Shown here: one piece after another, positions 3-59,088 of the stretch
Numbering within the stretch: position 1 is the first letter of the stretch
How the letters are laid out: every line of letters starts with the position of its first letter
Notes under the pieces: generated by a model
The model's database searches: none
What the model was told of the DNA's origin: nothing
The model's input: only the letters and a program-made list of their open reading frames with translations
Position numbers and translations under genes: made by a program
Virus record (IMG/VR): IMGVR_UViG_3300027842_000093
Span: 1-64,000 of that record
DNA from: a virus
Reading direction: 5' to 3' (one strand)
Length of the DNA stretch: 64,000 nucleotides

Positions 3-659
3 ACCGAACAACTTGATGGGTATTTAAAATCGACCCAAGCTCCATACCCAAACACAAAAGTTATTCGTCCCTCCCAAATTCATCTTTGCTCCCGTTGGAT
101 TGTTGGAGATATTTTAGGGGTAGTTCCTTTCGAACCAAAGAGTGCTGTTCAGCAGCGTGTTCTGGATAATGGTTCTTACGTCCACAAGCGAATCCTTCAG
201 AAGTATTTGCCGAGGATGGGTATTGTTTCGCACATCCTGGATATCAAGAAAGGTGAAGTAAAACCGTTTATCGAAGTTAGTTTGCGTGATGATTCTTTAT
301 GGATGAAGGGAAGCCCAGACGCAATTATTTTAAATCCAAACGATGGACTTGCCTACGTCTTTGAATTGAAAAGTATGCGGGATGGAGAATTTAGAATTTT
401 AGAAGAAGCGAAGTGGGAACACATCCTTCAGTTGCATTGTTATTTTTATTTGACGAACCTCTCCCAAGGAATTTTATTTTACGAGAACAAAGACAACCAG
501 CAGACAAAAGAGTTTGTGATTCAGAAGAGCGACTTGGTAATGAATGATATTTTAAATAAAATTAGTTTGGTTCAGAAGGCTGTGATGGAAAAGAATTTAA
601 ATATTCCGTGCGATAATACAGGCACAAACGCTTGTAAATGTTCCTCATTACTGATATAG
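3..659 (+). CDS. Cas4/RecB-like PD-(D/E)XK nuclease, 5' end outside window
   Basis: The reading frame is open from the left edge, so the start lies upstream; 218 residues are visible. The core reads GSPDAII...YVFELKS, the D...ExK metal site of PD-(D/E)XK nucleases, followed by a QLHCYFYL helix typical of the RecB/Cas4 branch. One Cys near the start (LCSRW) and a C-terminal cluster (PC...ACKC) match the four-Cys iron-sulfur layout of Cas4/AddB-type nucleases. It probably processes DNA ends in replication or recombination. The Fe-S cluster is an inference from Cys spacing. Confidence 0.75.
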   Translation, partial: TEQLDGYLKSTQAPYPNTKVIRPSQIHLCSRWIVGDILGVVPFEPKSAVQQRVLDNGSYVHKRILQKYLPRMGIVSHILDIKKGEVKPFIEVSLRDDSLWMKGSPDAIILNPNDGLAYVFELKSMRDGEFRILEEAKWEHILQLHCYFYLTNLSQGILFYENKDNQQTKEFVIQKSDLVMNDILNKISLVQKAVMEKNLNIPCDNTGTNACKCSSLLI

Positions 660-667
660 TTGATGAT

Positions 668-943
668 ATGAAACTCTTCCACCATTCTCGCAAGCTCGTA
701 TACGATACAGAGACCGGAGAACTTCTAACATTTGAAGAGTTTGAATATAAAAAGACAATGAAAGAATTGGAAGAGAATAACAAGAATTTAGTTTGCGTTT
801 TGTGTGGTGAATTGTGGGAACCTGGATACAAGAATCTTTGTGAATGCGGTGGATTTTGTACATGGGGAGAATCTAAAGGGGCACAACCACTTTCTTGGAA
901 TGAAGATGGCACTGCCAAAGCTCCGCCGAAAGGAATTTCATGA
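668..943 (+). CDS. zinc-ribbon protein of unknown function
   Basis: 91 residues. CVLC and CECGGFC form a zinc ribbon in the second half; the N-terminal half is charged and helical. An in-frame ATG at 638 would overlap the nuclease gene; I prefer 668 because it falls just after the upstream stop, but neither start has a clear ribosome site. Its stop overlaps the start of the phosphoribosyltransferase gene (ATGA). Function unknown. Confidence 0.6.
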   Translation: MKLFHHSRKLVYDTETGELLTFEEFEYKKTMKELEENNKNLVCVLCGELWEPGYKNLCECGGFCTWGESKGAQPLSWNEDGTAKAPPKGIS

Positions 944-1371
944 ATAAGAAAATTTCAAAGTTGTATCTTGATTGGCCGACCTACCTGCAACTCATCGACC
1001 AGTTATCAGAGAAGATAAATTGGAAGGAAGAAAAGTTTGAAAGTATTGTTGCTATCAGCCGTGGCGGAAATATTCCAGCTACGATTCTTTCACATAAAGC
1101 GGGAATCCCTTTGGTCGTCTTGAACAAAACTGGGATGATTTATGAACGCGGAAAGTTTTTAGTTGTGGATGAAATTGCCCATACAGGTTCGACATTGGCG
1201 AACATCAATTACATGTCCCAAGGGGCAAGTAGAAAGTACCATCCCCTGCAATACGCAAGCAAGGATTTCAAAACTGCTACGCTGCATTATAGGAAGGAAT
1301 CGAAAGTGAAGCCGGATTATTTTGTCGAAACAACTGATAAGTGGATTGTGTACCCTTATGAGCAAGCCTGA
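940..1371 (+). CDS. purine-type phosphoribosyltransferase
   Basis: 143 residues. FLVVDEIAHTGSTL (about 73-86) is the PRPP-binding motif of type I phosphoribosyltransferases, with the acidic pair D77-E78. The upstream AISRGGNIPATIL matches the phosphate-loop region of hypoxanthine/xanthine/guanine enzymes. It would join a purine base to PRPP in salvage, which fits the nearby GMP reductase-like gene. The base specificity cannot be read from the sequence. Confidence 0.85.
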   Translation: MNKKISKLYLDWPTYLQLIDQLSEKINWKEEKFESIVAISRGGNIPATILSHKAGIPLVVLNKTGMIYERGKFLVVDEIAHTGSTLANINYMSQGASRKYHPLQYASKDFKTATLHYRKESKVKPDYFVETTDKWIVYPYEQA

Positions 1372-1531
1372 TATTATTTGTAAGTGTGGACACCTTCAAC
1401 ATTATGATAAATATTATCCTTTTGCACTTCTTGCTGGGACTTGTAGCACGGCTCCATGTAATTGCCGAGAATATACACCCGACAATCTTACCCACATCGA
1501 ACAATTAGCGAAGCAGAAAGGACTTGTATGA
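1358..1531 (+). CDS. zinc-head/DNL-tail small protein (family member 1)
   Basis: 57 residues, starting inside the end of the phosphoribosyltransferase gene. The head is CKCGH..H with later C and CNC; the end is PDNLTHIEQLAKQKGLV. This is the first of about 45 genes in the window with this tail; no known family is recognised. The last codons contain AAAGGA (1517-1522), five bases before the ATG of the next gene (1528), which overlaps this stop as ATGA, so translation is probably coupled. Confidence 0.8.
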   Translation: MSKPDIICKCGHLQHYDKYYPFALLAGTCSTAPCNCREYTPDNLTHIEQLAKQKGLV

Positions 1532-1866
1532 AAAAAATCTATAATACGACGGTAAAGACCAAAGCGAAACACTATAAGAAATTTTCAGATTTGGTTGGGA
1601 AGCAATTCATCCACGGCGGAGATAAATACAAATTGAATGGATTTTCTGACCGCGAAGCCACGGATGTTATTAGTTCGGTGTTCGGAGGGGAGCTTGGGGA
1701 TCAGTGGATTTTGGGTACAATTTTAAAATATTTGTTTCGATGGAATAATTTTCATCGAGAGAAGGATATTTTAAAGATGGCGACTTATTTGTATCTCCTT
1801 TGGGTCAAGCAAGGATTTCATTTACAAAAAGCACACGATGAAGATACTAAAAGGATAAGTAAGTGA
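1528..1866 (+). CDS. DUF3310-like protein (SaV-like nucleotide kinase family)
   Basis: 112 residues. The central part, LGTILKYLFRW...KDILKMATYLYLLW, matches the phage DUF3310 pattern (GNxxKYxxR...K..DL.KA..YL). DUF3310 proteins are common in phages and sometimes called nucleotide kinases, but there is no P-loop here, so I would not assign a reaction. A further upstream in-frame start exists; 1528 is chosen for the ATGA overlap and the AAAGGA site. Confidence 0.7.
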   Translation: MKKIYNTTVKTKAKHYKKFSDLVGKQFIHGGDKYKLNGFSDREATDVISSVFGGELGDQWILGTILKYLFRWNNFHREKDILKMATYLYLLWVKQGFHLQKAHDEDTKRISK

Positions 1867-2165
1867 GAAATCCATCCAAGCGCGAAATAGAAAGATTTCG
1901 AGATATTGAAAATCAAGGCGCTTGGAGTCTACCCTCCGAAGCATTACACAAAGCTCTTCCTTGTGATGGTTGTGGGAGAATGCCTGTAGTTAATCCGCGT
2001 TGGTTGATACGGGACAACCCCCGTTATGGTGCAGGAAGAAAATACATTCTTGGTTGTCCCTCTGCTATGTGGGGAGGGGCTGAAGTATACGAAACTTTAA
2101 TGGAAGCAATTGAGAACTGGAATTACCACGTTGAGTTTGGAGGACATAATTGTGTCGCAAGATAA
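1863..2165 (+). CDS. Lar-like restriction-alleviation-type zinc protein
   Basis: 100 residues with a GTG start overlapping the previous stop. CDGCG...C and the later LMEAIENWN resemble the Lar family (CPFCG ... EAI..WN), small proteins linked to relief of restriction. The match is to a short pattern only, so the role is tentative. A GGAGG near its 3' end serves the next gene. Confidence 0.55.
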   Translation: MRNPSKREIERFRDIENQGAWSLPSEALHKALPCDGCGRMPVVNPRWLIRDNPRYGAGRKYILGCPSAMWGGAEVYETLMEAIENWNYHVEFGGHNCVAR

Positions 2166-3150
2166 ACTCTTAGATTTTGATTCGGTGTTGATCGAACCGC
2201 AGTTTTCTATGGTGCGAAGTAGAAAGGATGTTGACGTTTCCACAGACTTTCTAGGGATGAAGCTTTCGCTTCCTGTAATGAATTCGAACATGGATACGGT
2301 CGCCAGCCCATCTTTATGCAGAGCTTTATCCGATTATGGAACAGTTGGAACCCTTCACAGATTCTGGAGTATTGAAGAGAATGTTAAAGCTTTTGTAGAA
2401 TCGATAAGCCCTGAAGGTAAGGGGGTTTGTCCAATTGTTTCAATTGGAATTGGGGATAAAGAATTTGAAAGGGCGCAAGCTCTGTACGATGTAGGCGCAA
2501 GCCGATTTATGTTGGATGTTGCTCATGCCGCCAACATTTCCGCTGTAGAAATGTACAACAGGCTAGTTAAAGAATTTCCGTATTGTTATTTTATTGTAGG
2601 GGATTTTGGAACGGGTAAAGAAATATTGGAGTTTCTTACGAAAGTTTCCAAATTTCCAGATGCTGTTAAAGTGGGAATTGGAGTAGGAAGTGTCTGCCAT
2701 ACAAAACTTGTCACTGGCGTAGGAAGTGCGGCATTGAGTTGTTTGTTTGATTGTGCCGATGCGTTGGATGATTCCGATCTGTTTGATAAAAAAATTCAAC
2801 TCGTTCTTGACGGAGGCGTTCAACATTATGGCGACATCGCCAAAGCGCTGGTAGCTGGGGCAGATGTTGTAATAAGCGGTTCGATGTTCGCAGGATGTTT
2901 AGAAGCGGGTGGAAAACAATTTAATGGAGTAAAAGAATATCGTGGATCAGCTTCATTACCGTCTTATGAGGTTCAGGGAAAGGTTGCAACGTGGAGAGCC
3001 CCAGAAGGAACTTCCACAATGATACAAATTACAGGGACTGCCTCAGAAGTGTTGAACAACATAAACGGCGGATTAAGAAGTTCCTTGAGTTATGTAGGAG
3101 CATTTAATTTGGATGAATTCAAAGCAAAGGCGAAGTTTCAATACAAATGA
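2152..3150 (+). CDS. GMP reductase-like enzyme (IMPDH/GMPR family)
   Basis: 332 residues with no CBS domains, the length of GMP reductase GuaC. NSNMDTV, GIGVGSVCHTK with the catalytic Cys at 182, LDGGVQHYGD and the C-terminal GGLRSSLSYVGA follow the GuaC order closely. The enzyme would interconvert GMP and IMP using NADPH. The GTG at 2152 is chosen because GGAGG lies at 2139-2143; a longer in-frame start at 2110 lacks one. It acts with the upstream phosphoribosyltransferase in purine balance. IMP dehydrogenase activity cannot be excluded. Confidence 0.85.
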   Translation: MSQDKLLDFDSVLIEPQFSMVRSRKDVDVSTDFLGMKLSLPVMNSNMDTVASPSLCRALSDYGTVGTLHRFWSIEENVKAFVESISPEGKGVCPIVSIGIGDKEFERAQALYDVGASRFMLDVAHAANISAVEMYNRLVKEFPYCYFIVGDFGTGKEILEFLTKVSKFPDAVKVGIGVGSVCHTKLVTGVGSAALSCLFDCADALDDSDLFDKKIQLVLDGGVQHYGDIAKALVAGADVVISGSMFAGCLEAGGKQFNGVKEYRGSASLPSYEVQGKVATWRAPEGTSTMIQITGTASEVLNNINGGLRSSLSYVGAFNLDEFKAKAKFQYK

Positions 3151-3341
3151 AAAATAAAGAAGTTAGGCCGTGTGGATATTGTGGTAAAGAATGGGCCGAC
3201 CACGAAGGTGCTGAATATTATTTAGAAGGGGATGCTGCATTTTGCTTTCATGTGAAATCAAATAATCCCACAGCTACGTATGTTCCGATGGACAATTTAA
3301 CGTACATCGAATATTTAGCAAAGAAAAAGAACTTGGTATGA
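3147..3341 (+). CDS. zinc-head/DNL-tail small protein
   Basis: 64 residues. The head is CGYCGKEWADH with a later C and H; the end is MDNLTYIEYLAKKKNLV. It overlaps the GMP reductase-like gene upstream and the primase gene downstream by four bases each. Function unknown. Confidence 0.8.
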   Translation: MKNKEVRPCGYCGKEWADHEGAEYYLEGDAAFCFHVKSNNPTATYVPMDNLTYIEYLAKKKNLV

Positions 3342-3997
3342 AAACCCTTCCCGCTTACAAATATTTGATTGAAGAACGACAGCTTACAGAAGAAACTATT
3401 AGGGCGTTTCATCTCGCTCACCGCGACGCTAAGGGAATGATGTACGTAGATGCCGATTGTACAGAACCTTTTCCAGAGCTTGACTTTCGATTCAACAATG
3501 CTGTGTTGTTTCCCGTTTTCGATTTGTATGGAAAGTGTATTGGAGTTTCAGCCCGACCTTTAACTCCAGGACCTGACTTGCCAAAGTACGTAAATACCAG
3601 TTACGAGAAGGCGGATCATTTATTTGGGTTGAATGTCGCTTACCCGTTTTGTATTAAAGAGAAAACAGCTTTCGTAGTAGAGGGAAATATCGATGTGGCG
3701 CAAATGCACCAGAAAGGAATTAAAAATGTCGTGGGTATGTTGGGTAGTAATTTTAGTGTTGTTCAGCTTGGCTTGCTTCTTGGTTTTGTAGAGCGAGTGA
3801 TTTTTGTGCCGGATGGAGATATGGCAGGACTTAATTTTATGGAAAAAACAAAGAACACTTTATTGAAGCGGTACAAAGATGTTCCGATGTCTTTTTCATT
3901 TCTGATGTTGCCAACGGGGTTTGACCCCGATTCGTATTTAAAGAAGTTTTCGAAAGAAGAGTTTCTAGCATTGCCGCAGGTTGAGGTAAAATCGTAA
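3338..3997 (+). CDS. DnaG-type primase catalytic core (TOPRIM)
   Basis: 219 residues. LFPVFD.YGKCIGVSAR then KYVNTSYEK and HLFGLNVA is the N-terminal part of the primase core. AFVVEGNIDV (Glu115) and FVPDGDMAG (Asp159, Asp161) are the TOPRIM metal residues. The zinc-binding domain and helicase-binding domain of cellular DnaG (about 580 residues) are absent, so this is a compact phage version that would make RNA primers at the fork. The helicase loader homolog lies far away at 49 kb. Confidence 0.85.
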   Translation: MKTLPAYKYLIEERQLTEETIRAFHLAHRDAKGMMYVDADCTEPFPELDFRFNNAVLFPVFDLYGKCIGVSARPLTPGPDLPKYVNTSYEKADHLFGLNVAYPFCIKEKTAFVVEGNIDVAQMHQKGIKNVVGMLGSNFSVVQLGLLLGFVERVIFVPDGDMAGLNFMEKTKNTLLKRYKDVPMSFSFLMLPTGFDPDSYLKKFSKEEFLALPQVEVKS

Positions 3998-4566
3998 TGA
4001 ATTTCTACGTCATTTACACACCGCTAACGCATGGGTTGACAAGCACACATCTAATCCAAGAAGCTTTTGAGACTCGCCATATCCACGCGAAACTTTGGAT
4101 TCCTATGCAGTGCATTAAGCGTTTACGTTACAATACAGAAATCGAGGCTCAAGTGCCCCTCTTTCCCAACTACGTACTTATTCAAACAACATTCCCAGAG
4201 GGTATGGAGCAGGAGATGGAGTTGGCGTTGTTGGAACTTAAAGCGGGTTACTTCTTGAAGTACCCTGGAAGCGACTTGCCAGCTATTATTACGACAGAAG
4301 AAATTGAAAGAATACAAGCTCACGAAGCCAAGGAGGTTCTGGAAACGCAAAAAGAAGAAACTTACACACCAGTCGAGATTGGTACTTATGTTGAAGTGGC
4401 TACAAGTCCACTCATGGGACTAAAAGGAATCGTTGTAGATACAACCAAAGAAACTGTTACAATCGAAACCTTTGTATTTGGCAGGAGTGCTCCTGTCGAA
4501 GTTCCCATATCCGTACTTTCACGTTCAACGCCAGTTCCCGTTTTGCAATCCAAAAATGTGTCATGA
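3997..4566 (+). CDS. NusG/RfaH-like transcription factor
   Basis: 189 residues. The N-terminal NGN-type domain contains VPLFPNYVLIQ, the signature strand of NusG and RfaH. About residues 125-165 form a KOW domain (VEIGTYVEVATSPLMGLKGIV). NusG-like proteins bind the RNA polymerase clamp and suppress pausing; a phage copy could act as a processive antiterminator for long operons. The next gene is a sigma-like protein, which supports a role in transcription control. Confidence 0.85.
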   Translation: MNFYVIYTPLTHGLTSTHLIQEAFETRHIHAKLWIPMQCIKRLRYNTEIEAQVPLFPNYVLIQTTFPEGMEQEMELALLELKAGYFLKYPGSDLPAIITTEEIERIQAHEAKEVLETQKEETYTPVEIGTYVEVATSPLMGLKGIVVDTTKETVTIETFVFGRSAPVEVPISVLSRSTPVPVLQSKNVS

Positions 4567-4976
4567 AAAAAAAGAAACAAGTTTCAAAGCGTAAAGAGTA
4601 CGTAAGAGATAACGCGGTACGAGCAAACAATTCTAAAATGGAGTTCGTGGAAATTTCCATGGACCCGGAAGCACTTGAAAAGGCGGCTCACGCCCATGCA
4701 ACATGGCAGCAGTTGATTAAGGATGACCCTGCCAACGATTACAATGAATTGGAAGTGAGAATGATCCAAGCCGAAAGGATTAATAAAATATTCCAAACGG
4801 CATCCCAAGTGTTGACAGAGGTACAGTTCAAGATTTTCGTAATGCGCTACGCTTACGACTTGAAGCAGAAGGATATTGCGAAGCAGATTCACTGCAACCA
4901 ATCTTACGTTCCTTCAGTGTTGAAAGCGTCGGTTAAGAAGATTCAGAAGAGGCTGAAGACGGAAGGGATTCTGTGA
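4563..4976 (+). CDS. sigma-70 region 4-like DNA-binding protein
   Basis: 137 residues. The C-terminal part, LTEVQFKIFVMRYAYDL then QKDIAKQIHCNQSYVPSVL, has the helix-turn-helix layout of sigma region 4. Regions 2 and 3 are missing; the N-terminus is basic. It may act as a small sigma factor or a co-activator with the NusG-like neighbour. The motif reading is moderate in strength. Confidence 0.6.
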   Translation: MKKKKQVSKRKEYVRDNAVRANNSKMEFVEISMDPEALEKAAHAHATWQQLIKDDPANDYNELEVRMIQAERINKIFQTASQVLTEVQFKIFVMRYAYDLKQKDIAKQIHCNQSYVPSVLKASVKKIQKRLKTEGIL

Positions 4977-5140
4977 TCGACATTCTTTGTTCTTGTGGGC
5001 ACGGTAAATCTCAGCATATAGTTGTAGGATGTATGAAATGTGCTGCCCTAGCAACCCGCTCTTTTGATATGTGCAATTATTACGTACCAGATAACCTTTC
5101 TACAATAGAAGTTCTTGCCCAACAAAAAGGACTCGTATGA
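4973..5140 (+). CDS. zinc-head/DNL-tail small protein
   Basis: 55 residues with a GTG start overlapping the previous stop (GTGA). The head is CSCGH....H, then CMKC and a later C; the end is PDNLSTIEVLAQQKGLV. Its last four bases overlap the ATG of the next gene. Confidence 0.78.
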   Translation: MIDILCSCGHGKSQHIVVGCMKCAALATRSFDMCNYYVPDNLSTIEVLAQQKGLV

Positions 5141-5712
5141 CAAACCTCGTGTTCATCGAACACAAAAAGGTTCCCAAGGACCAAGCCAGAGCGATTAAAG
5201 AGGATTTGAAATCTTACGCAATTTCGGTTGCTCTGAAGTTCCCCACACAAACCATTTCCGAAGAGGAGAAGGTGAAAGTGGCGAAGCATTCTGTCAGGAG
5301 TCTTTTTAAACGTTTCGACCTTTCCACAAAGAACCTTGGAACTTTGATTCACGATGAAGTGATTGGCAACCTCCAGAAGGTGTATTTCAAAATTAAGAAA
5401 ACCACTTTGAATTACCACTTCCTTTCCAAATCGAATAAAGAGCTTTTGGAAATGATTAGGATTGTTAAATTGCTTCGCAGGAATCATCCGAAGAAGTACA
5501 ACACACTTTCCAAATCCTTACAGAAACAATTGAACAAAAGGCAGCAGAAGATTTTCAACATTTATTTGAGATTCAAGCCAAGGGGCAAGAGACGGCTCAC
5601 ATACCAAACGGTCAGCAGATTATCGAACATTCCTGCTGGGACAATCAACCATCAAGTGAAGCAGGTTGTACAGAGTTTGGGGAAACTTATGAGACAGCAA
5701 AAACTAAAATGA
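5137..5712 (+). CDS. second sigma-region-4-like/HTH protein
   Basis: 191 residues, very basic. The C-terminus (KRQQKIFNIYLRF then TYQTVSRLSNIPAGTINHQV) has the shape of a sigma-type helix-turn-helix similar to the gene at 4563. The first 120 residues are not recognised. Two such proteins beside a NusG homolog suggest a transcription-control cluster. Confidence 0.5.
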   Translation: MTNLVFIEHKKVPKDQARAIKEDLKSYAISVALKFPTQTISEEEKVKVAKHSVRSLFKRFDLSTKNLGTLIHDEVIGNLQKVYFKIKKTTLNYHFLSKSNKELLEMIRIVKLLRRNHPKKYNTLSKSLQKQLNKRQQKIFNIYLRFKPRGKRRLTYQTVSRLSNIPAGTINHQVKQVVQSLGKLMRQQKLK

Positions 5713-6458
5713 CAGACGAAAATCAAAAACCTGAAGAACCAATAGAAGCTGAAGTGGTACCAACGCCAGTTCCGCCCAAGCATCTTTCCATGAAAGTGGG
5801 GAGGCTGGACTTGCTGCCCCCAGAACTTAAAGAGGAAATGGATACCCGCATTTTAAGTGGGGAAGCGCTCACCACTCTCCGGGAAGACATGATAAAAAAG
5901 TATCCGTCAGTGGAAGAACTCAAAGTGAGTTATTTGACTTGGGCCAAACGAGCCAGGAAGCTAAAGGGCGGAACGCAGAAAGAGCTTAAAGACGGTACAG
6001 TAGTGAAGAAAGAAATGGTTGCCGCTTTGCCCACAGCGGAGGATATCCAGAAGACAGTATCCAAAGTGATTGACCCAGCCGTTAGTTTGGAAGATAAACA
6101 AGCCGTTCTAGCGGCCCTTTACGCCAAGGAAATGCAGCGCCTTACAATCCTTGAATCAAAGCAGCAATCATTCATAAACCCCGATCTTGAGATGCTGATG
6201 CTGGGCTACGTAAAAGAAATCCGCGCCCTACTAGAGACAGTCAGCAAACTACAAGAAACTCTTCAAAAAGACACTCTCTCTGCGTTCAAGGGAGAACTGG
6301 ACGAACTTATCAGAACGATCCTAACGACCGTTTATGCTTCGTATCGTTTGGAACACCCAGACGTAGACCCCACCTCAAAATTCGATGGATTCAGAGCCAC
6401 CTTAGAAAGCCATTTGAGCAAGACCCTCCAACAGTATAAGCAGCAAAAACCAGCCTAG
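5709..6458 (+). CDS. unknown helical protein
   Basis: 249 residues. A Pro/Glu-rich start (about 25 residues) is followed by a mostly helical body with PPELKEEMDTRILSGEAL and coiled-coil-like stretches around 140-200. No catalytic motif is seen. It is the last gene before the first extended -10 promoter and so ends the first transcription block. Confidence 0.6.
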   Translation: MTDENQKPEEPIEAEVVPTPVPPKHLSMKVGRLDLLPPELKEEMDTRILSGEALTTLREDMIKKYPSVEELKVSYLTWAKRARKLKGGTQKELKDGTVVKKEMVAALPTAEDIQKTVSKVIDPAVSLEDKQAVLAALYAKEMQRLTILESKQQSFINPDLEMLMLGYVKEIRALLETVSKLQETLQKDTLSAFKGELDELIRTILTTVYASYRLEHPDVDPTSKFDGFRATLESHLSKTLQQYKQQKPA

Positions 6459-6490: not shown

Positions 6491-6519
6491 TTGACAGGCC
6501 ACTGTTTTTCTGTTACACT
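6491..6519 (+). promoter_or_regulatory. extended -10 sigma-70 promoter
   Basis: TTGACA (6491-6496), 17-bp spacer, TGT then TACACT (6514-6519). The ATG of the next gene lies six bases after the -10, so transcripts may be leaderless. Confidence 0.85.
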
Positions 6520-9227: not shown

Positions 9228-9256
9228 TTGACAATTTTATAAAAATCTGTTATACT
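9228..9256 (+). promoter_or_regulatory. extended -10 sigma-70 promoter
   Basis: TTGACA (9228-9233), 17-bp spacer, TGT then TATACT (9251-9256). A GGGAGGA ribosome site follows at 9262-9268. Confidence 0.87.
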
Positions 9257-10456: not shown

Positions 10457-10485
10457 TTGACACGGATTCGAATTTCTGCTATACT
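10457..10485 (+). promoter_or_regulatory. extended -10 sigma-70 promoter
   Basis: TTGACA (10457-10462), 17-bp spacer, TGC then TATACT (10480-10485), preceded by AAAATAACCC. Confidence 0.87.
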
Positions 10486-11694: not shown

Positions 11695-11723
11695 TTGACA
11701 AACCTTCATTTTTCTGCTACACT
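11695..11723 (+). promoter_or_regulatory. extended -10 sigma-70 promoter
   Basis: TTGACA (11695-11700), 17-bp spacer, TGC then TACACT (11718-11723). Confidence 0.85.
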
Positions 11724-11734
11724 AGAGGAACGAA

Positions 11735-11944
11735 GTGAGCAGCAAGAAGAAGCATTTGAGGGGGACGAGGAATAAGATGCCAAAGGGTAAAAGAGGTGGA
11801 TCTAAACCCCGACCAGTTTGTAAGAACGGACATGAGATAGCTGAGGTTGGCCGTGATTCCAGTGGACATTGCAAAAAATGCCAAGCTGACTATTACAAAG
11901 AACGTTGGGAGTTTGTTAAAAATAATTTTAAAAAAGCTTCTTAA
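11735..11944 (+). CDS. stand-alone zinc domain resembling an HNH-endonuclease N-terminus
   Basis: 69 residues with a GTG start behind GAGGAA. VCKNGHEIAEVGRDSSGHCKKC closely resembles the N-terminal module of the HNH gene at 53626 (ICINGHDISVVGRDEWGNC), but no nuclease core follows. It may be the leftover of a homing gene or a separate DNA-binding protein. A typical HNH gene follows after a gap. Confidence 0.6.
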   Translation: MSSKKKHLRGTRNKMPKGKRGGSKPRPVCKNGHEIAEVGRDSSGHCKKCQADYYKERWEFVKNNFKKAS

Positions 11945-11968
11945 AAATATAATAAATTGTGGTATTAT
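11940..11968 (+). promoter_or_regulatory. AT-rich promoter-like element before HNH gene
   Basis: CTTAAAAATATAATAAA, then TGG and TATTAT (11963-11968). A 27/30 match occurs at 58998-59027, also ahead of an HNH-gene unit. The -35 is poor for sigma-70; AAGGAG follows before the ATG at 12015. Confidence 0.5.
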
Positions 11969-12014
11969 TGAGACGTATTATGCAACTGATATTATAATTT
12001 TAAGGAGAATTTAA

Positions 12015-12698
12015 ATGAAGCGGAAGAAGATGACAAAAAAAGAAAAGAAACTCAAAAAGAAAGAATCTGATCACAAATATTATGAAAGAACTAAACGTAC
12101 ACGTCATCGTAAGCAAAAGAATAGAAAGAACCAACGTACATATTATTGGCGACATCGCACAAAAATATTACGAAAGAAAAAACAAACAGACAAAAAGAAT
12201 AGGGCGAAACTTAAAATTTATATGCGGCCCTATTTAAAAAAATATCGAGCAACTCATAAGTGTAAAATAAAAAAGATGCAGCAGCTACATTACCAACACA
12301 ATAAGAAACGCATAAGTAAAAAAGCTACAAAATATGTTAGAGAACGAACAAAGATTGATTTGCGATTTAAACTTATGAGAGCTTTACGAAGTCGATTATG
12401 GCACGCGATAAATACAAAGCAAAAAACTGGTTCAGCTATTAGCGATTTAGGCTGTTCTGTTAATTTTCTTAAAAATTACATTGCTGCCAAGTTTACTGGA
12501 AAAATGTCCTGGAGTAACTGGGGTAAGATTTGGGAGTTGGACCACATCATTGCGCTTCATAAGTTTGATTTGACTGATAGAAAGCAGTTTCTAAAAGCCT
12601 GTAACTATAAAAATCTTCAGCCCTTGACTGTAAAGGCGCATTTAAAGAAAACGGCAAAAGAGTTAAAAGAACTTCGTGAATTGAGAGGAAACTGGTAA
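12015..12698 (+). CDS. HNH homing-type endonuclease
   Basis: 227 residues. The first 120 are extremely Lys/Arg-rich (DNA binding). The C-terminal nuclease part contains LGCSVNFLKNYIAAKF, WELDHIIALHKFDLT (catalytic DH) and NYKNLQPL. Such enzymes cut DNA to spread their own gene. It has its own AT-rich promoter-like element and low GC compared with the neighbours, signs of independent mobility. Its stop overlaps the next ATG. Confidence 0.85.
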   Translation: MKRKKMTKKEKKLKKKESDHKYYERTKRTRHRKQKNRKNQRTYYWRHRTKILRKKKQTDKKNRAKLKIYMRPYLKKYRATHKCKIKKMQQLHYQHNKKRISKKATKYVRERTKIDLRFKLMRALRSRLWHAINTKQKTGSAISDLGCSVNFLKNYIAAKFTGKMSWSNWGKIWELDHIIALHKFDLTDRKQFLKACNYKNLQPLTVKAHLKKTAKELKELRELRGNW

Positions 12699-13915
12699 TG
12701 GCCGATAACAGCATTATAGAAAAGTGCATCATTCGCTTGCTCCGCACCAATGGCGTGTTCTACGCCAGCCTGTTGCAGCAGATGCACCGCATTCCTTTAG
12801 AGGGTAAAGAAGCTAAAGCGCTTAATACCTGCGGTGTCACAATCAAGAATGGTAGAATCCTCCTTTACTGGAATCCCAAATTTTTTGAAACCCTCACGAT
12901 GGATGAAGCCAGATCCGTATTGGAGCATGAGTGCCAGCACATCGTCCGGGCCCATGTTGAACGCTTCAAAGATAAAGACCAGCACATCGGCAACCTTGCC
13001 ACCGATCTTGCTCAGAATCAATTTATCACTGGGCTCCCCAAAGATTGTGTCACCCTCGACAAATTCCCCAAAGAATGGAAGTTGAAAGAGAAAGAATCCG
13101 CTGAGTATTATTACGATGAAATGATGAAACACTCTAATAAAATTACAGTTTCCAAAAACCCCGATGGGTCCTACCACGTTAAAATTACCGATCCTAAAGG
13201 CAAAACAATTTCCGAATTTGATGTGAACGACATGGATGGTAGTGAGTGGAAAGATGCCGACTCCTCAGAGTTTTCCAAAGAGGTGGTTCGACAGGCCGTT
13301 AAAGAAGCTGTTGACCAAATGAAACGCAGTCAGGGCTCTCTCCCAGCCGGACTTGAAATGTCTGTTAATGAAATTCTTCAACCTCCCAAGATTTCCTGGA
13401 ACCAACTCCTCAGACAGTATGTTGCCGCTTCGATTAAGTCCGGGAGTAGGCAGAGTTGGAAAAAACCTAACAGGCGATTTGGGGCAACACAGAAGGGTCG
13501 CATTGCCGACCACATAATTGCCATTTCAGTTGGGTTGGATACGAGCGGTTCAATTGGGCCGGAAGATTACAAGATATTTTTCTCGGAGTTAAAGAGTATC
13601 CAGGAATGCTATAAAGCGGATATCAACGTGATTGAGTGTGATGCTGATGTGCAACGGCACTACAAACTGAATCGGTACAAGAAGGGGAACCGTAACGTTA
13701 AGGGCGGAGGCGGGACGGATTTTCGACCAGTCTTCGATTACATTAAAAATAAAAAGATTCGTACCGATGTGCTTGTATTTTTCACTGACATGTGGGGGAG
13801 TTTTCCTAAAGAGAAATACGCATTCAAAACGATTTGGGTTTCGACGAGTGATGTGAAAGACGCACCGTTCGGGCGCGTGATTCGAATCAGCGATTATCCG
13901 AACAAGGGAAAATAA
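12698..13915 (+). CDS. DUF2201-like metallopeptidase/VWA-domain protein
   Basis: 405 residues. The N-terminal domain contains HECQH (77-81), a zinc-peptidase HExxH. The C-terminal half is a VWA-like domain with the MIDAS motif DTSGS (281-285) and GGGGTDF. This pairing is typical of DUF2201 proteins, which sit beside MoxR-type ATPases, exactly as here. The pair may remodel a host target; the substrate is unknown. The promoter at 13921 starts the ATPase gene separately. Confidence 0.85.
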   Translation: MADNSIIEKCIIRLLRTNGVFYASLLQQMHRIPLEGKEAKALNTCGVTIKNGRILLYWNPKFFETLTMDEARSVLEHECQHIVRAHVERFKDKDQHIGNLATDLAQNQFITGLPKDCVTLDKFPKEWKLKEKESAEYYYDEMMKHSNKITVSKNPDGSYHVKITDPKGKTISEFDVNDMDGSEWKDADSSEFSKEVVRQAVKEAVDQMKRSQGSLPAGLEMSVNEILQPPKISWNQLLRQYVAASIKSGSRQSWKKPNRRFGATQKGRIADHIIAISVGLDTSGSIGPEDYKIFFSELKSIQECYKADINVIECDADVQRHYKLNRYKKGNRNVKGGGGTDFRPVFDYIKNKKIRTDVLVFFTDMWGSFPKEKYAFKTIWVSTSDVKDAPFGRVIRISDYPNKGK

Positions 13916-13920
13916 AACCC

Positions 13921-13949
13921 TTGACAAATAATTTTAAAGCTGTTACACT
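13921..13949 (+). promoter_or_regulatory. extended -10 sigma-70 promoter
   Basis: TTGACA (13921-13926), 17-bp spacer, TGT then TACACT (13944-13949). It lies between the VWA and MoxR genes and gives the ATPase extra transcription. Confidence 0.86.
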
Positions 13950-13987
13950 AAAGCGAAGTTCAATAAAAACGAAAGAGAGAATCTAAA

Positions 13988-15055
13988 ATGAAAGTTCCAG
14001 AAGCTAAAATCTTCATCCGTGCATTGGTCGAGCATAACGTTCCACTCACCCCTTGCCTTGTGGGAGCTATGGGTATTGGGAAGTCCCAAATTGTCGCCCA
14101 GGTAGCTAAAGAGCTTGGGATTGGGCTGATTGACTTGCGTTTAGCCCAGATGGAAACCGGGGACCTTGTGGGTATCCCGTATCTTAATGGGAAAAAGACT
14201 TTCTGGGGACAGCCTGGATGGTGGCCGGAAGAGGGAACCAAAGGAATTTTGCTGATGGATGAAATTAATCGTGCTCCTAACGATGTGCGTCAGGCCGTTT
14301 TCCAATTGATTTTGGCCGACCATCATGGGAATCGAAAGCTGCATACCCATGTCCTGCCTAGAGGGTGGGCTGTGGTTGCCGCTATGAACCCGGACAATGG
14401 AGAGTATCAAGTTGAGACGTTGGACAAAGCGATGGTACGACGGTTCATTATGTTGACGGTGCAGCCGGATGTTGAATCGTGGCTCTTGTGGGCCAAGGAG
14501 AATGTTGGAGAGAAGGGTGCCCCAAAGGTTGATCCGGCCATTACTGCGTTCATTGCCGCCAATAAGAACCTGTTGAACTTGACAGAGAACTTCGATGTTG
14601 AGGTGAAACCCTCCTCCGATGCTTGGACGATGTTGAGCGCTCTTCGAGCGGCTAACGTCATTCCGTATGAAGCTGAGTTCGAAATTATGGCTGGGCTGGT
14701 TGGCAAGGAATCCGCTACAGCATTCCGCAAATGGTTGGATGCCAACTACAAGCGGCCAGTGAATGGGGAAGAAATCCTTAACAAGTATGACGATGTAGTT
14801 GACAAGTTGATGGAGCAGGGAAATGCGGAGTGGTACGCAACGAAGCTGGACCTTCTCACGCACCTTGCAACGAACAAAGACCTGAACAAGAAGCAGACGG
14901 AGAACCTTAAGCGGTTCATTAAGGACAGCCCTGCGGATATCCAAGCTGCCTTTGTCCAGGGGCTACCTCCAGAGTTGATGCACAAACTTACGAAAGACGA
15001 TGACATGCTGATTAAAATTGCAAAGAACCTGCACCGAGCGAACGAGGGTAAGTAG
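13988..15055 (+). CDS. MoxR-like AAA+ ATPase
   Basis: 355 residues. Walker A GAMGIGKS (26-33), Walker B ILLMDEIN (Asp91, Glu92), sensor-1 VAAMNPDNG and the VRRF arginine region are complete. MoxR ATPases work with VWA proteins as chaperones that insert metals or reshape complexes. With the upstream VWA metallopeptidase it forms a two-gene phage unit. The C-terminal 150 residues are helical. Confidence 0.88.
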   Translation: MKVPEAKIFIRALVEHNVPLTPCLVGAMGIGKSQIVAQVAKELGIGLIDLRLAQMETGDLVGIPYLNGKKTFWGQPGWWPEEGTKGILLMDEINRAPNDVRQAVFQLILADHHGNRKLHTHVLPRGWAVVAAMNPDNGEYQVETLDKAMVRRFIMLTVQPDVESWLLWAKENVGEKGAPKVDPAITAFIAANKNLLNLTENFDVEVKPSSDAWTMLSALRAANVIPYEAEFEIMAGLVGKESATAFRKWLDANYKRPVNGEEILNKYDDVVDKLMEQGNAEWYATKLDLLTHLATNKDLNKKQTENLKRFIKDSPADIQAAFVQGLPPELMHKLTKDDDMLIKIAKNLHRANEGK

Positions 15056-30674: not shown

Positions 30675-30703
30675 TTGACAAACTCCCAAAAACCTGTTAT
30701 ACT
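30675..30703 (+). promoter_or_regulatory. extended -10 sigma-70 promoter
   Basis: TTGACA (30675-30680), 17-bp spacer, TGT then TATACT (30698-30703); GGGAGGT follows at 30712. Confidence 0.87.
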
Positions 30704-36802: not shown

Positions 36803-36831
36803 TTGACAAGAATGGGTTCTCCTGCTATACT
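36803..36831 (+). promoter_or_regulatory. extended -10 sigma-70 promoter for ncRNA
   Basis: TTGACA (36803-36808), 17-bp spacer, TGC then TATACT (36826-36831), preceded by AAAATAACCC. No reading frame follows for 600 bases; the transcript would begin at about 36837. Confidence 0.88.
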
Positions 36832-44640: not shown

Positions 44641-45171
44641 ATGCGAGCATATCTTTCGGGCAGTATGGCCGGACGATTTACCCAGGAAGTCCAGGCAGAA
44701 CGCGCTGAAGCTTCTGCTGCCTTGGCAAAGATTGGTGTACGCGCTGCCGATCCTGCTGCGGCTGAATCACAGCTTTGGGGCCGACACGTAAAGTCTCGTG
44801 TCTCCACAAAGTTCAAATATAAAATTATAGAAGCAATGGTGAAACGCGATCTTTGGTTGATTCGCCGTTGCGATATTGTGTTGGTTCTTACTGGCGATCA
44901 AGTAAGTGATGGAACGTGGCAAGAATGGTGTTACGCTAACATGATGGGCATCCCTGTTGTTATGATTGCCCCCAAACGGCACAAAGGAGAGCTTTCGGGT
45001 TGGGCCAATGTTACGATACCAAGGGGAAATATTGTACCGAATCTCAAAGCTGCTTGCAACCTGATTAAACGCAGGTATCTAAAAGAAGATGCACAATTCA
45101 AAGCGTATTTCAATGCTTCAATCAAAAACGCCAACAGAAACATTAAGAACGGGAAGCGAAAAAAGCATTGA
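44641..45171 (+). CDS. nucleoside 2-deoxyribosyltransferase-like protein
   Basis: 176 residues behind AGGAGG. AYLSGSM, the DLWLIRRCDIVLVL strand and DGTWQEWCYANMMGIPVVMI match the NDT-like branch of the SLOG-related fold. NDT enzymes move deoxyribose between bases; some relatives only bind nucleotides. The Arg/Lys-rich last 25 residues are unusual. Confidence 0.72.
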   Translation: MRAYLSGSMAGRFTQEVQAERAEASAALAKIGVRAADPAAAESQLWGRHVKSRVSTKFKYKIIEAMVKRDLWLIRRCDIVLVLTGDQVSDGTWQEWCYANMMGIPVVMIAPKRHKGELSGWANVTIPRGNIVPNLKAACNLIKRRYLKEDAQFKAYFNASIKNANRNIKNGKRKKH

Positions 45172-45196
45172 CAATTGGCAGCAAATCTGTTATAAT
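45168..45196 (+). promoter_or_regulatory. extended -10 sigma-70 promoter
   Basis: TTGACA (45168-45173), 17-bp spacer, TGT then TATAAT (45191-45196). The ATG of a tail-family gene follows nine bases later (45205), so the leader is absent or minimal. Confidence 0.85.
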
Positions 45197-50749: not shown

Positions 50750-51369
50750 AGCGTATTTTAATTTCTGGCTACATCAAGAAGATTGATTCAAATGGTACGG
50801 ACAATATTCTTGTAGAAACGATTAAGGACCTTCATCCAACATACCGAGATTTGAAGTTGCCCCTACAACAATTCTTTAACGATGGTATGATTGATGCTTT
50901 CGAACACTACAATTTTACATTTAAGCTGAAAATCCCAAGCTCTCTTCTTTATATTTTCAGGTATTACCGCATTGCCGTTCTTACAGAACTCCCAGAGATT
51001 GAACAGCTTGCCTACGTTCCACCTACGTTTCTTAAAGGTGGGCAGAAAATGCCAGATGCTGAAAGCAGTGAGATGAATACCAAATACCAGAACTTCTACA
51101 AATTCCTATTTAACTTTTTTAACAAACTGATTAAGCAAAACGTATCGGTTCATCAACTCGAATTCATCTTACCAGGGGGAAGATTCACTGAATTGTACCT
51201 CACCATGAATTTGAATGATTTGATGCCCTTTTTAAATACAAATTTAAGAAGTGAAATGCCAGAAGTGAAAGAGATAGCGCAAGCGATGCTAGAATATTTT
51301 AAAGAGGAATTTCCGTTGACGGCTTCAGTGTTTTTGGCTCACAATTTTCCTCGTCAGAGCCCGACGTAA
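50746..51369 (+). CDS. ThyX-like protein with degenerate signature
   Basis: 207 residues. The order of parts follows flavin-dependent thymidylate synthase: a core strand then RYYRIAVLTELPE where ThyX has RHRxxSxNExS, PPTFLKGG, and a C-terminal part (LPGGRFTELYLTMNLNDLMPFLNTNL...EVKEIAQAML). The catalytic RHR and the substrate Arg/Ser residues are altered. It may be an inactive or re-purposed relative, or a divergent enzyme working with the deaminase. Confidence 0.62.
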   Translation: MKRILISGYIKKIDSNGTDNILVETIKDLHPTYRDLKLPLQQFFNDGMIDAFEHYNFTFKLKIPSSLLYIFRYYRIAVLTELPEIEQLAYVPPTFLKGGQKMPDAESSEMNTKYQNFYKFLFNFFNKLIKQNVSVHQLEFILPGGRFTELYLTMNLNDLMPFLNTNLRSEMPEVKEIAQAMLEYFKEEFPLTASVFLAHNFPRQSPT

Positions 51370-51414
51370 AAACGTAATAAAATCAGGTATTAGTAAGGGA
51401 CAACTAAAAATTTT

Positions 51415-55850: not shown

Positions 55851-56162
55851 ATGAGCAACCTACATAAGTTGTTTAAAGAGTTACAAAAGTTGGATTACGA
55901 TGATTTTGATTTGTTGTGTGATGCTTGGCGTGAATCTACACAAGTAAAAAACCAGTGTAAAAATATGGGAATTAAGTACAACGATAAATATTTAATTAAT
56001 GCCGTGACGAAGAGAGCAACTTCCAAATTAAATTACCCAGGAGCGGCACCCCCAATAAATCCCCCCGGACAAAATAATCGGGATAAAAAGATTCATCAGA
56101 TAATTGTGGGTGACAATCTGGACATTATTGAAGAGGCCGCAAAAAAGAAAGGATTGATATGA
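55851..56162 (+). CDS. helical DNL-tail protein (block copy B2)
   Basis: 103 residues. NLHKLFKELQKLDYDDF begins a helical body; the end is GDNLDIIEEAAKKKGLI. Paralog of the gene at 50026. The last codons (AAAGGATTGATATGA) hold the ribosome site and start of the protease gene. Confidence 0.71.
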   Translation: MSNLHKLFKELQKLDYDDFDLLCDAWRESTQVKNQCKNMGIKYNDKYLINAVTKRATSKLNYPGAAPPINPPGQNNRDKKIHQIIVGDNLDIIEEAAKKKGLI

Positions 56163-56917
56163 TTTTAAATATACTTGCTGTCATCTTAGGAATTGCTGCG
56201 GTTATTGGAATCCACGAAGCTTCCCACATGCTTGTTTCCAAACTGTTTGGTGTAAAGGTTTTAAAATTCTCCCTGGGGTTTGGTCCAGTTATTTTCTCCA
56301 AAAAGATTGGAGATACGCAGTACCAACTCTCCGCTCTCCCTTTGGGTGGGTACGTCCAGTGCGCTGGCGAGGACCCAGAAAGTAACGTACAGAATGGGTT
56401 TTTCAGTCTACCATGGTACAAACGTTCCCTGATAGCCCTAGCTGGCCCTGTGGCTAACCTTATCCTTGGATTTGGACTAATCTTTGCCCTCCTCGTTTTG
56501 TTCAAAGGATGGCCTATTTTAGCGGGACTGGGACAAGCGTTTAAATTGTGCTCGTTCGTTATTACAACCAGCTTAAAATGGATATTTGGAATGTTACCAG
56601 CAGCCAAAGATGCAGCACAAGGGTCTGGATTATCGGGCCCGATAATGGTGACAAAAATTCTGATGTCCTCAGCCAAAGAGGGAGCGGCACAATTTTTATT
56701 TGTCTTGTCTCTTATTTCTTTAAGCTTGGGGTTGTTTAATCTTTTCCCCATACCTGCACTTGATGGAGGCCACGTCTTTCTGTACACGCTTGAAGGTATT
56801 AGGGGCAAAAAGTTTTCGAACAAAGTGTATTTGGTATGGAATTTTGTAGGGATGCTTTTGCTGGCCAGCTTAATGTTGTACACTTGTTTTTCCGACATAA
56901 CTACCCTGCTTAAATAA
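56159..56917 (+). CDS. site-2-type intramembrane metalloprotease (M50)
   Basis: 252 residues. HEASH (19-23) is the zinc motif in the first membrane helix, with KFSLGFGP following; FPIPALDGGHV is the second metal motif (LDG) in a later helix. Four or more membrane helices are visible. The PDZ domains of RseP are missing. It would cut a membrane-bound protein; in bacteria such enzymes release anti-sigma factors. Phage copies are rare and the substrate is unknown. Confidence 0.85.
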   Translation: MILNILAVILGIAAVIGIHEASHMLVSKLFGVKVLKFSLGFGPVIFSKKIGDTQYQLSALPLGGYVQCAGEDPESNVQNGFFSLPWYKRSLIALAGPVANLILGFGLIFALLVLFKGWPILAGLGQAFKLCSFVITTSLKWIFGMLPAAKDAAQGSGLSGPIMVTKILMSSAKEGAAQFLFVLSLISLSLGLFNLFPIPALDGGHVFLYTLEGIRGKKFSNKVYLVWNFVGMLLLASLMLYTCFSDITTLLK

Positions 56918-57261
56918 TGGACCCAAAGATTATAAACGACACATTCGAAAAAGATCCACATATTTGTTCGATGTGCGAATGTGGGTCTGGAAATCATTTA
57001 ATTTTCTATTCATGCCCGTTATTCAGTGGACACCCAATCTGCCAGGATTGTTGCATGGTGGATATGATGAAAGACGATATAGATACAAAAGTATCCGCGA
57101 AGTTGGGCAACCCAATAGATAAAGCAACAATCAATTCCATTTGTCGTAGCTGTGGTATGAATAACGCCTGTCAAAATCAAAAGTTGGCTGAGGATTTAGA
57201 ACGAGGAGCACTAGGAGAACCCAATGGCCCAGAACAAGACGGACCTAGAAAAACGCGCTGA
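56917..57261 (+). CDS. Cys-rich protein
   Basis: 114 residues. CSMCECGSGNH, CPLFSGHPICQDCC and CRSCGMNNAC give about ten Cys, perhaps two zinc sites or an Fe-S site. The stop overlaps the ClpP-like gene by 38 bases. Function unknown. Confidence 0.62.
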   Translation: MDPKIINDTFEKDPHICSMCECGSGNHLIFYSCPLFSGHPICQDCCMVDMMKDDIDTKVSAKLGNPIDKATINSICRSCGMNNACQNQKLAEDLERGALGEPNGPEQDGPRKTR

Positions 57262-57886
57262 CGAGGGAGAAGAAAACGCAACACCTCCTTCACCATCTCA
57301 TCCTTTCGATGAGTATGCCCACAGCACGTATGAAGAACTTCTCGAAGAGAGAATCATATTGCTCAATGGTGACATTCGAGAGAATGTAATCGAGAAGGCC
57401 GCAATTCCCCTTATGAAATTGGCTCAAGAAAAAGGCCCAATACAGATTTACGTTAACAGTTATGGCGGTTCAATCAATGACAGCCAAGCCGTTGTGGACA
57501 TCATTTCCACAATAGATAACCCAGTAATCACAATGGCTTTTGGGAAGGCTATGAGTGCGGCGTTTGATATTTTCGTCGCAGGGGATTATAGAATCTCATA
57601 TCCCAATACTGTATTCATGTGTCACAGTGGTGCAGCTTCTTTAGGGCTTCAAACTCTCTCCGCTATCAATGTTGAAGCGAAGCTTCATCTCCAATATTTC
57701 GAGCGTTGGGCAAAATTTTACGCTTCCCGAACCAAAGTGTCTGAGAAAGAATGGATGGAAATTCTTAATAATTCATTAAATCGATATTACTTCCCGGACG
57801 AGGCGTTGGCTAAAGGAATAGTTCACCACATAGTTAGTCCAGGAAACAAACCTCCTATGAAAAGCATTTTAAAAATGAAGTGGTAA
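57224..57886 (+). CDS. ClpP-like serine protease (S14)
   Basis: 220 residues. ERIILLNGDI, QIYVNSYGGSI, GKAMSAAF with Ser111, and FMCHSG with His134 follow ClpP. The position of the catalytic Asp (RDRF region of E. coli ClpP) is Asn186 here, as in Listeria ClpP1. A 30-residue polar N-terminus replaces the propeptide. Phage ClpP-like proteins often act as prohead proteases; genuine Clp function is the alternative. The genes after it encode modular proteins with repeated KEA sites. Confidence 0.85.
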   Translation: MAQNKTDLEKRADEGEENATPPSPSHPFDEYAHSTYEELLEERIILLNGDIRENVIEKAAIPLMKLAQEKGPIQIYVNSYGGSINDSQAVVDIISTIDNPVITMAFGKAMSAAFDIFVAGDYRISYPNTVFMCHSGAASLGLQTLSAINVEAKLHLQYFERWAKFYASRTKVSEKEWMEILNNSLNRYYFPDEALAKGIVHHIVSPGNKPPMKSILKMKW

Positions 57887-58984: not shown

Positions 58985-58997
58985 TGACGAAAAACCC

Positions 58998-59026
58998 CTT
59001 AAAAATATAATAAAAACTGGTATTAT
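58998..59026 (+). promoter_or_regulatory. AT-rich promoter-like element before HNH unit
   Basis: CTTAAAAATATAATAAA, then TGG and TATTAT (59021-59026): 27 of 30 bases match 11940-11969. AGGAGAA follows before ATG 59089. Confidence 0.5.
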
Positions 59027-59088
59027 TAGGATGTATGCTGCGTTTATATATTTTAATTTAATTTTAGGAGAACAAGAAGAGAAACAAT

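Follow-up and report, generated by a model that had tools for sequence, protein, structure and literature searches.

We analysed a 64,000-nucleotide stretch of viral DNA (the window), which comprises positions 1 to 64,000 of the 117,490-base virus record IMGVR_UViG_3300027842_000093 (G000), and found that a gene for a NusG-type elongation factor lies there in one string of overlapping genes with a gene for a sigma region-4 protein and a gene for a possible divergent sigma factor. Two classes of promoter-like elements, named class E and class L here, were also found in the genome of this phage. These observations suggest that this large uncultured phage probably reprogrammes host RNA polymerase (RNAP) for part of its own genes. 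The reading that we favour, to which we give a probability of roughly 0.5, is that the string is a transcription-takeover module whose sigma proteins would bring the host enzyme to class-L promoters and whose NusG would provide processivity.

A NusG-type gene in one string with two sigma-like genes

The open reading frames (ORFs) from 3338 to 6458 (Table 1) probably form one operon because their start and stop codons overlap. With the start codons given in the ORF list, TAATG at 3995-3999 joins the first two ORFs, overlaps of 4 nucleotides (nt) between start and stop lie at 4563, 4973, 5137, and 5709, and every junction overlaps by 1 to 4 nt. The three ORFs of 189, 137, and 191 amino acids (aa) described in an earlier note on this DNA were all present, and a Cys-rich ORF of 55 aa between the two sigma-like genes had been overlooked there. 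The latter ends in a shared tag of 16 residues, about DNLSYIExLAKxKGLV followed by the stop codon, which closes many small ORFs, often behind CxCGH...C motifs. The tag motif had 41 plus-strand matches in the window and none on the minus strand, with 0.22 expected per strand from mononucleotide-shuffled DNA. Plus-strand matches include those at 1481, 3291, 5090, 31714, 49782, 55150, and 56112, and in 21 cases the motif stood exactly 16 codons ahead of a stop, with the next start often overlapping. The tag was taken to be a protein motif because its third codon positions vary, and two strict patterns found none outside the phage lineage among viral contigs.

The 189-aa protein matched the NGN domain model PF02357 (E value 5.8e-6; 27.2 bits, above the cut-off of 22.2) and PHROG 6386, "transcription antiterminator" (5.7e-11). 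More specific models aligned with most of its length and scored below their cut-offs: UpxY of NCBIfam (5.6e-13, residues 21-171, 49.2 bits versus 100), LoaP of NCBIfam (4.7e-10, residues 3-175, 39.8 bits versus 125), the housekeeping NusG model TIGR00922 (1.7e-8, residues 31-170, 34.5 bits versus 135.7), and, by score, the RfaH model TIGR01955 (20.1 bits versus 144.5). A profile made from this protein and four other phage NusGs found Escherichia coli NusG (2jvv) at 5.8e-39, a score owed partly to those four sequences. The KOW domain was recognised from the LoaP, UpxY, and NusG models, which reach residues 170 to 175, and from the alignment of the E. coli NusG KOW domain with an FGRxxPVE segment in the protein; among the Pfam KOW models none reached its cut-off (the best, KOW5_SPT5, had 17.3 versus 27), and PF00467 was not among the matches. 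The earlier description of a complete NGN-KOW protein was borne out, and from its family we infer that the phage NusG promotes processivity or antitermination.

When the NusG sequence was compared to annotated phages, three matches were obtained, including a huge phage (3e-6), and no relatives were found in viral contigs. PF02357 had no match in the fragmentary record of a third related phage, G003 (28,536 bases). None of the NusG, 137-aa, and 191-aa proteins matched G001 (151,359 bases), a related phage with approximately 65 to 91% identity across aligned pieces, or G002 (141,877 bases), which matches the window record at 99.99 to 100% from position 37,007 on; both records are fragments, and the result for G001 is uninformative because it ends just before the operon region. 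A NusG in the record of Microcystis phage MaAM05 was set aside, since its neighbours are secE, rplK, and rplA and the record was taken to be bacterial DNA.

The phage NusG might mainly displace host NusG from its coupling to Rho or the ribosome, a role that would protect phage transcripts or shut off the host and would have little to do with the sigma proteins. Two observations favour such a role: the KOW domain retains the FGRxxPVE segment known from E. coli NusG, which we take to be the contact face for S10 and Rho, and reading of the ORFs around the NusG gene of the huge phage LR745206 showed no sigma-like neighbour. Against it, the NusG gene of the window belongs to the same run of overlapping genes as the sigma-like genes. 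We regard displacement as the main function as somewhat unlikely, and it is compatible with the other readings.

The 137-aa protein is a relative of sigma region 4. It matched PF08281 (Sigma70_r4_2) at 27.2 bits, above the cut-off of 25.7, and was aligned by hhalign with a profile of five sigma factors at a probability of 84.7 and an E value of 6.7e-6, in agreement with the sigma-4-like character proposed for it earlier. TIGR02937 matched at 7e-10 and 38.8 bits, below its cut-off of 42.9. No region-2 model was among its Pfam matches, and PF04542, the region-2 family, had no match in the record; as a region-4-only protein it is therefore not a sigma factor by itself. Its structural model is helical and has the same confidence as that of the 191-aa protein, and after realignment one low-Z row was a sigma complex (8z6g, Z 3.0). 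The 137-aa protein also weakly matched PF06530 (Phage_antitermQ; E 0.02, 15.2 bits, below the cut-off of 26) and the Q-like phrog_79 (0.015), which would fit a reading in which the two helix-turn-helix (HTH) proteins function as ordinary late-gene regulators or Q/ArpU-like antiterminators and class L is read by a host sigma factor. This we judge improbable, as the sigma models outscore these matches and most of the listed fold matches of the 191-aa protein are sigma factors.

For the 191-aa protein, the C-terminal sigma-4 HTH that the earlier note had described was present as a signal in hidden Markov model (HMM) searches but was weak, with every score below its cut-off. PF04545 gave an E value of 0.017 and 15.0 bits versus 24.1 (0.0046 with the C-terminal part alone), TIGR02937 gave 0.002, and hhalign gave 0.014 with a probability of 3.1; PF08281 was unmatched at E 1. 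In the alignment with RpoE, LSY..PVGT pairs with LTY..PAGT. When the predicted structure was compared to the PDB with Foldseek, 45 of the best 50 of 241 matches (E up to 10) were sigma-containing entries, many being repeats of the same few sigma factors, and the five other rows were unrelated. After realignment of Foldseek's own candidates, with chain identity taken from titles, lengths, and ranges, all 50 rows listed were sigma containing (Z 7.9-10.2), and the N-terminal part lay on sigma domain 2 (8b3z) at 2.1 A over 75 residues. Of 11 listed BFVD rows that carried a functional name, 8 were phage sigma factors, and a single structural row led to the KPV15 "sigma-like factor." On balance, the 191-aa protein is somewhat more likely to be a divergent two-domain sigma factor than not.

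Two classes of promoter-like elements and their leaders

Record G002 extends approximately 61 kb further than the window record. Its far end and the start of the window were taken as neighbours because, in a short relative contig (L048; L numbers are our own handles), a DNA polymerase ORF and the equivalent of window 23-3151 are approximately 1.2 kb apart, and on this adjacency the total phage genome would be approximately 180 kb.

Class-E sites have a pattern of the host sigma-70 type, TTGACA, 17 nt, and TAYACT or close to it, with CTG ahead of the -10 part (an extended -10). The strict pattern, which was derived from the sites themselves, matched the window eight times, on the plus strand each time, and was absent from all 100 shuffles. 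A weight matrix served as the independent test: built from 11 sites of the phage, it found 15 sites in the phage and 12 in G001, and these 27 sites, obtained at thresholds of 12 and 14, compare to 0 to 5 and 0 to 3 in simulations. None of the 15 phage sites lies between 45,196 and 118,040, a stretch that contains the terminase gene and, by reading, portal and other putative virion genes; this gap was noticed post hoc and is not absolute.

Class L is a 36-nt conserved element with the consensus CCCTTAAAAATATAATAAAATGTGGTATTATTAGGR and was discovered by reading the intergenic gaps of the 45- to 118-kb stretch in the phage and in G001. Read as a promoter, it consists of CTTAAA, 17 nt, and TATTAT, and TG stands ahead of the -10 part in 13 of 18 sites. 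A loose search for its core with 14 mismatches gave 23 matches in the phage, 23 in G001, and 5 in one mononucleotide-shuffled copy of G000, and weight matrices were adopted because of these chance matches. With the matrix from 8 phage sites, nine sites each were found in the phage and in G001, whereas three simulations of both genomes and five loci from other phages contained none; the matrix from all 18 sites found 10 in each of the two phages and 0, 0, 0, 1, and 0 in simulations. In the window, the class-L pattern, itself written from the sites, occurred 3 times versus 0.01 expected. Among viral contigs, it occurred in 10 stretches of three contigs, all of the phage lineage, and it was absent from the genome contigs searched for a candidate host. 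A second promoter-like class, of the kind that the earlier note had envisaged, is present by the matrices and the pattern count.

Class L is oriented with the genes downstream of it. Nineteen of 20 sites are on the plus strand, and the single minus-strand site, in G001, is directly before a minus-strand gene. Six of the 10 phage sites correspond in position to sites in G001, as interpolated from alignments in a comparison that left out three phage sites in L018, and two sites are at matching places in G003. The site at 85,822 is followed by two small ORFs and then a gene whose 1192-aa product matched a head maturation protease family (phrog_18299, 2.5e-15), and the site at 113,426 by the gene of a 976-aa protein that includes an ice-binding-like domain. 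Genes matching HNH or endonuclease VII families come after the sites at 160,787 and 166,427 and, beyond a 55-aa ORF, after that at 58,996. The proteins downstream of 75,767, 92,398, and 51,363 had no family match, and the genes after 11,938 and 174,199 had no useful one. The downstream genes are a mix of virion-type, endonuclease-like, and unassigned genes. As a separate observation, the 976-aa virion-type protein (L005 9534-12464; phage 113,534-116,464) matches Ice_binding-like PF11999 at residues 377 to 548 with an E value of 4e-37, its start presumably resembles a tail sheath, without a family match, and the G001 protein at the matching place is much shorter, at 565 aa.

Class L could also be a repeat that is not a promoter, such as an operator, a site of RNA or DNA processing, or a trace left by mobile endonuclease genes. 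Conservation extends over 36 positions, more than two hexamers would need, the ends form partial inverted repeats, and endonuclease-like genes follow several of the copies. We consider this very unlikely given that its orientation tracks the downstream gene, that it has -35- and -10-like parts at a 17-nt spacing with 5' hairpins past the putative start, and that copies before virion-type genes hold their position in other phages. An RNA stem was also considered for class L and rejected, since its CCC and GGG ends lack covariation by reading.

The 30-nt leaders after class L, taken from the putative first transcribed bases on, were folded and compared to mononucleotide-shuffled sequences, giving a mean z of -1.35 with a P value of 0.05 or less in 8 of 22 leaders, which include orthologues and hence are not independent. 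The same test gave a mean z of 0.28 (0 of 22) when moved 29 nt further downstream and 0.25 (0 of 15) after class E. By reading, the stem sequences vary between sites and the pairing is kept. A transcript start at AGGR with a 5' hairpin would fit this folding, and a hairpin on class-L messages may serve their stability. No Rfam family reached its gathering score in the window. It is also conceivable, though in our view rather improbable, that the phage NusG is recruited by the class-L 5' hairpin, or by the sigma-loaded enzyme that made it, which would restrict processivity to transcripts started by the phage sigma factor; by analogy, this would be a LoaP-like NusG with its own sigma factor and promoter.

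Counts of terminator-like sites did not uphold the proposal of the earlier note that these proteins together let the enzyme read through terminator-poor operons. Over 1 to 60 kb, 16, 17, and 13 sites were found versus 20.7, 18.2, and 15.3 expected, which is at chance level, and in 84 to 104 kb, 20 kb of the virion-gene region, 30 were found versus 17.6 expected, which is above chance.

Table 1. Coordinates of the operon genes and of the class-E and class-L elements in the window
Feature	Position	Strand	Basis or remark
Toprim/DnaG-type primase fragment, 219 aa	3338..3997	+	upstream of NusG gene, same operon; family matches
NusG-type elongation factor, 189 aa	3997..4566	+	NGN ~3-107, KOW ~128-175, FGRxxPVE segment
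Sigma region-4 protein, 137 aa, without detectable region 2	4563..4976	+	Pfam, NCBIfam, hhalign
Cys-rich ORF, 55 aa, C-terminal phage tag DNLSTIEVLAQQKGLV	4973..5140	+	ORF list; no family match
Possible divergent two-domain sigma factor, 191 aa	5137..5712	+	sigma2-like ~14-90, sigma4-like ~118-190
249-aa protein, no assigned function	5709..6458	+	final operon gene; ORF list and family searches
Class-E promoter-like site	6491..6519	+	just past operon
Class-E promoter-like site	9228..9256	+	strict pattern/matrix
Class-E promoter-like site	10457..10485	+	strict pattern/matrix
Class-E promoter-like site	11695..11723	+	strict pattern/matrix
Class-L element	11938..11973	+	before 227-aa ORF at 12015
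Class-E promoter-like site	13921..13949	+	strict pattern/matrix
Class-E promoter-like site	30675..30703	+	strict pattern/matrix
Class-E promoter-like site	36803..36831	+	strict pattern/matrix
Class-E promoter-like site, 12/12 consensus	45168..45196	+	last at matrix threshold before virion genes
Class-L element, degenerate	51363..51398	+	before 205-aa ORF at 51415
Class-L element	58996..59031	+	before 55-aa ORF and endonuclease-like gene (59247)

Proposed mechanism, points against it, and neighbouring genes

Under the favoured reading, class-E promoters would serve early genes, read by host RNAP with its main sigma factor. The operon would then deliver the small divergent sigma factor of 191 aa and the stand-alone region-4 protein of 137 aa, which together would place the host enzyme on class-L promoters ahead of putative virion and endonuclease-like genes, presumably late. 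The phage NusG would join the elongating enzyme and aid its passage through the long operons of virion genes. The proposal that the operon redirects host RNAP, already put forward in the earlier note, gains indirect support from class L, from the fold-level hint of a sigma factor in the 191-aa protein, and from the lack of matches to PF04542 and to PF04997 (RNAP beta' domain 1) in G000, G001, and G002; a divergent region 2 would escape the former search, and no search was aimed at further RNAP families, such as the T7 type. Judging from these searches, the phage likely uses the host RNAP. A host search with the terminase large subunit (TerL) gave two distant matches, both in Fimbriimonadales metagenome-assembled genomes, and named no host.

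A model of sigma appropriation fits almost as well as the favoured reading, and by itself we consider it unlikely. Here, host sigma would read TATTAT, the 137-aa protein would replace host region 4 on the beta flap and read CTTAAA, and the 191-aa protein would be a DNA-binding cofactor. This agrees with the 137-aa protein, which is clearly related to region 4 and has no region 2 that could be detected, with a class-L -10 part that matches TATAAT at five of six positions and often has TG before it, and with a -35 part unlike TTGACA. The fold-level signal of region 2 in the 191-aa protein argues against this model.

Several observations weigh against a takeover by phage sigma proteins and NusG. 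The class-L -10 part is close to that of the host, and host sigma could therefore read class L. Several class-L sites serve endonuclease-like genes beyond the virion region, and the terminator counts give no sign of an unusual need for antitermination. As to the separation of the two classes, a looser scan found weaker sigma-70-like sites on the plus strand (48,181 and 68,801) and the minus strand (48,931 and 112,076), a weak class-E site lies at 70,417 in G001 (score 15.2), and generic sigma-70-like counts over 1 to 60 kb were near chance (46, 39, and 65 versus 33.1, 42.3, and 50.4 expected). For the 191-aa protein, HMM searches with its N-terminal half found no match to sigma region 2, and hhalign placed residues 68 to 95 on regions 2.3 to 2.4 at an E value of 0.086 and a probability of 0.7. 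Its structure is a single-sequence AlphaFold2 model with a predicted local distance difference test (pLDDT) score of 59.8, the other four models having scores of 36.8 to 48.8. Among the Foldseek matches listed, none had an E value below 0.001, and middling Z scores are frequent by chance for helical bundles. The rows spanning residues 1 to 191 had root mean square deviations of 16 to 23 A, so that only domain 2 fits well and the relative placement of the two halves is unmatched. The 137-aa model had no sigma entry in nine Foldseek rows, which indicates that such models do not drift to sigma unaided yet can miss a true one.

Homologues of the two sigma-like proteins were sparse. The 137-aa protein, which was not scanned against viral contigs, had no match in annotated phages. 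With the 191-aa protein, annotated phages gave two matches (E 0.5 and 1), the fragments G003, G014, and G015 gave none, and 14 stretches of viral contigs fit its pattern, none of them a relative. No convincing homologue of either protein was found in these searches; one doubtful stretch, with a stop, had an E value of 0.05. Finally, the genes beside NusG in Bacillus phage G show no more than a generic HTH.

The surrounding genes include one for an IMP dehydrogenase/GMP reductase (PF00478, 2e-61; window 2119-3150) upstream of the NusG gene. The primase may be split, with the Toprim fragment in the operon and, by reading, a zinc-type N-terminal piece at L018 1839-2357. A DNA polymerase gene (L018 18164 on; L026 5192-7843) is present in the phage lineage, and its start resembles what we take to be a uracil-DNA glycosylase domain. 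Window 12698-15055 encodes a DUF2201 metallopeptidase/VWA protein followed, by reading, by a MoxR-like ATPase. Also by reading, a site-2-type membrane protease lies near a ClpP-like protein at window 56159-57886, and a second ClpP-like gene is at L017 12177.

Comparison with known systems

Bacillus phage G (Donellivirus) similarly encodes a NusG, gp582, which is annotated as a NusG-like antitermination factor (PF02357, 2.6e-17), and shares a DUF2201/VWA-type gene within 10 kb of it (gp576 by reading). Among annotated phages, its gp1 is also closest to the terminase of our phage, at 29% identity. In contrast to the protein described here, gp582 lacks the FGRxxPVE segment; its gene neighbours differ, and the phage G sigma factor with regions 2 and 4 is located elsewhere in its genome. 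Synteny of NusG and a sigma-4 gene in phage G was considered and rejected, gp580 having a generic HTH only (PF04545 5e-5, 23.2 bits versus 24.1) and gp583 giving nothing useful. A search of an open-access library gave no paper joining NusG with Bacillus phage G. Three unannotated huge phages of 634 to 642 kb, LR745206, LR756502, and LR756504, have NusG-type ORFs of 178, 182, and 186 aa with approximately 18 to 25% identity to the 189-aa protein, depending on the alignment. Within approximately 6 kb of these, reading of ORFs found no sigma-like neighbour, and one LR745206 neighbour that was profile searched had no match.

The NGN-KOW proteins LoaP, UpxY, and RfaH serve long operons, and LoaP depends on a small leader-RNA hairpin (PMC7819879, PMC12691694). 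The phage NusG falls below the cut-offs of all three subfamilies, and its phage's leader hairpins differ from the LoaP case in having, by reading, no obvious common loop or stem sequence. In T4, the two small proteins gp55 and gp33 steer host RNAP to late promoters; gp33 clamps the flap tip helix and is structurally unrelated to region 4 (PMC7892883), and late transcription needs the gp45 clamp. The phage described here would resemble T4 in having two small phage proteins that redirect host RNAP to a separate promoter class, and differs in that its 137-aa protein is related to region 4 by sequence, unlike gp33, and in that class L has a -35-like part. SPO1 uses two phage subunits, gp33 and gp34, for late promoters that have their own -35 and -10 sequences. 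A tblastn search of annotated phages with the two sigma-like proteins, in which SPO1 gp33 and gp34 were not compared directly, gave no useful match.

The available text of two reviews places specialised NusG paralogues on chromosomes and plasmids and does not mention phage-encoded ones (PMC7819879, PMC6391919). As phage G gp582 demonstrates, a phage-encoded NusG has already been annotated. To our knowledge, the open-access literature describes no phage operon uniting a NusG, a region-4-only protein, and a sigma factor. Phages that depend on host RNAP usually alter either its start site, by means of sigma factors or gp55 and gp33, or its reach, by means of N, Q, or p7. If the favoured reading is correct, the operon would be a compact system altering both where RNAP starts and how far it reaches, and the class-L consensus would provide a direct, testable target.

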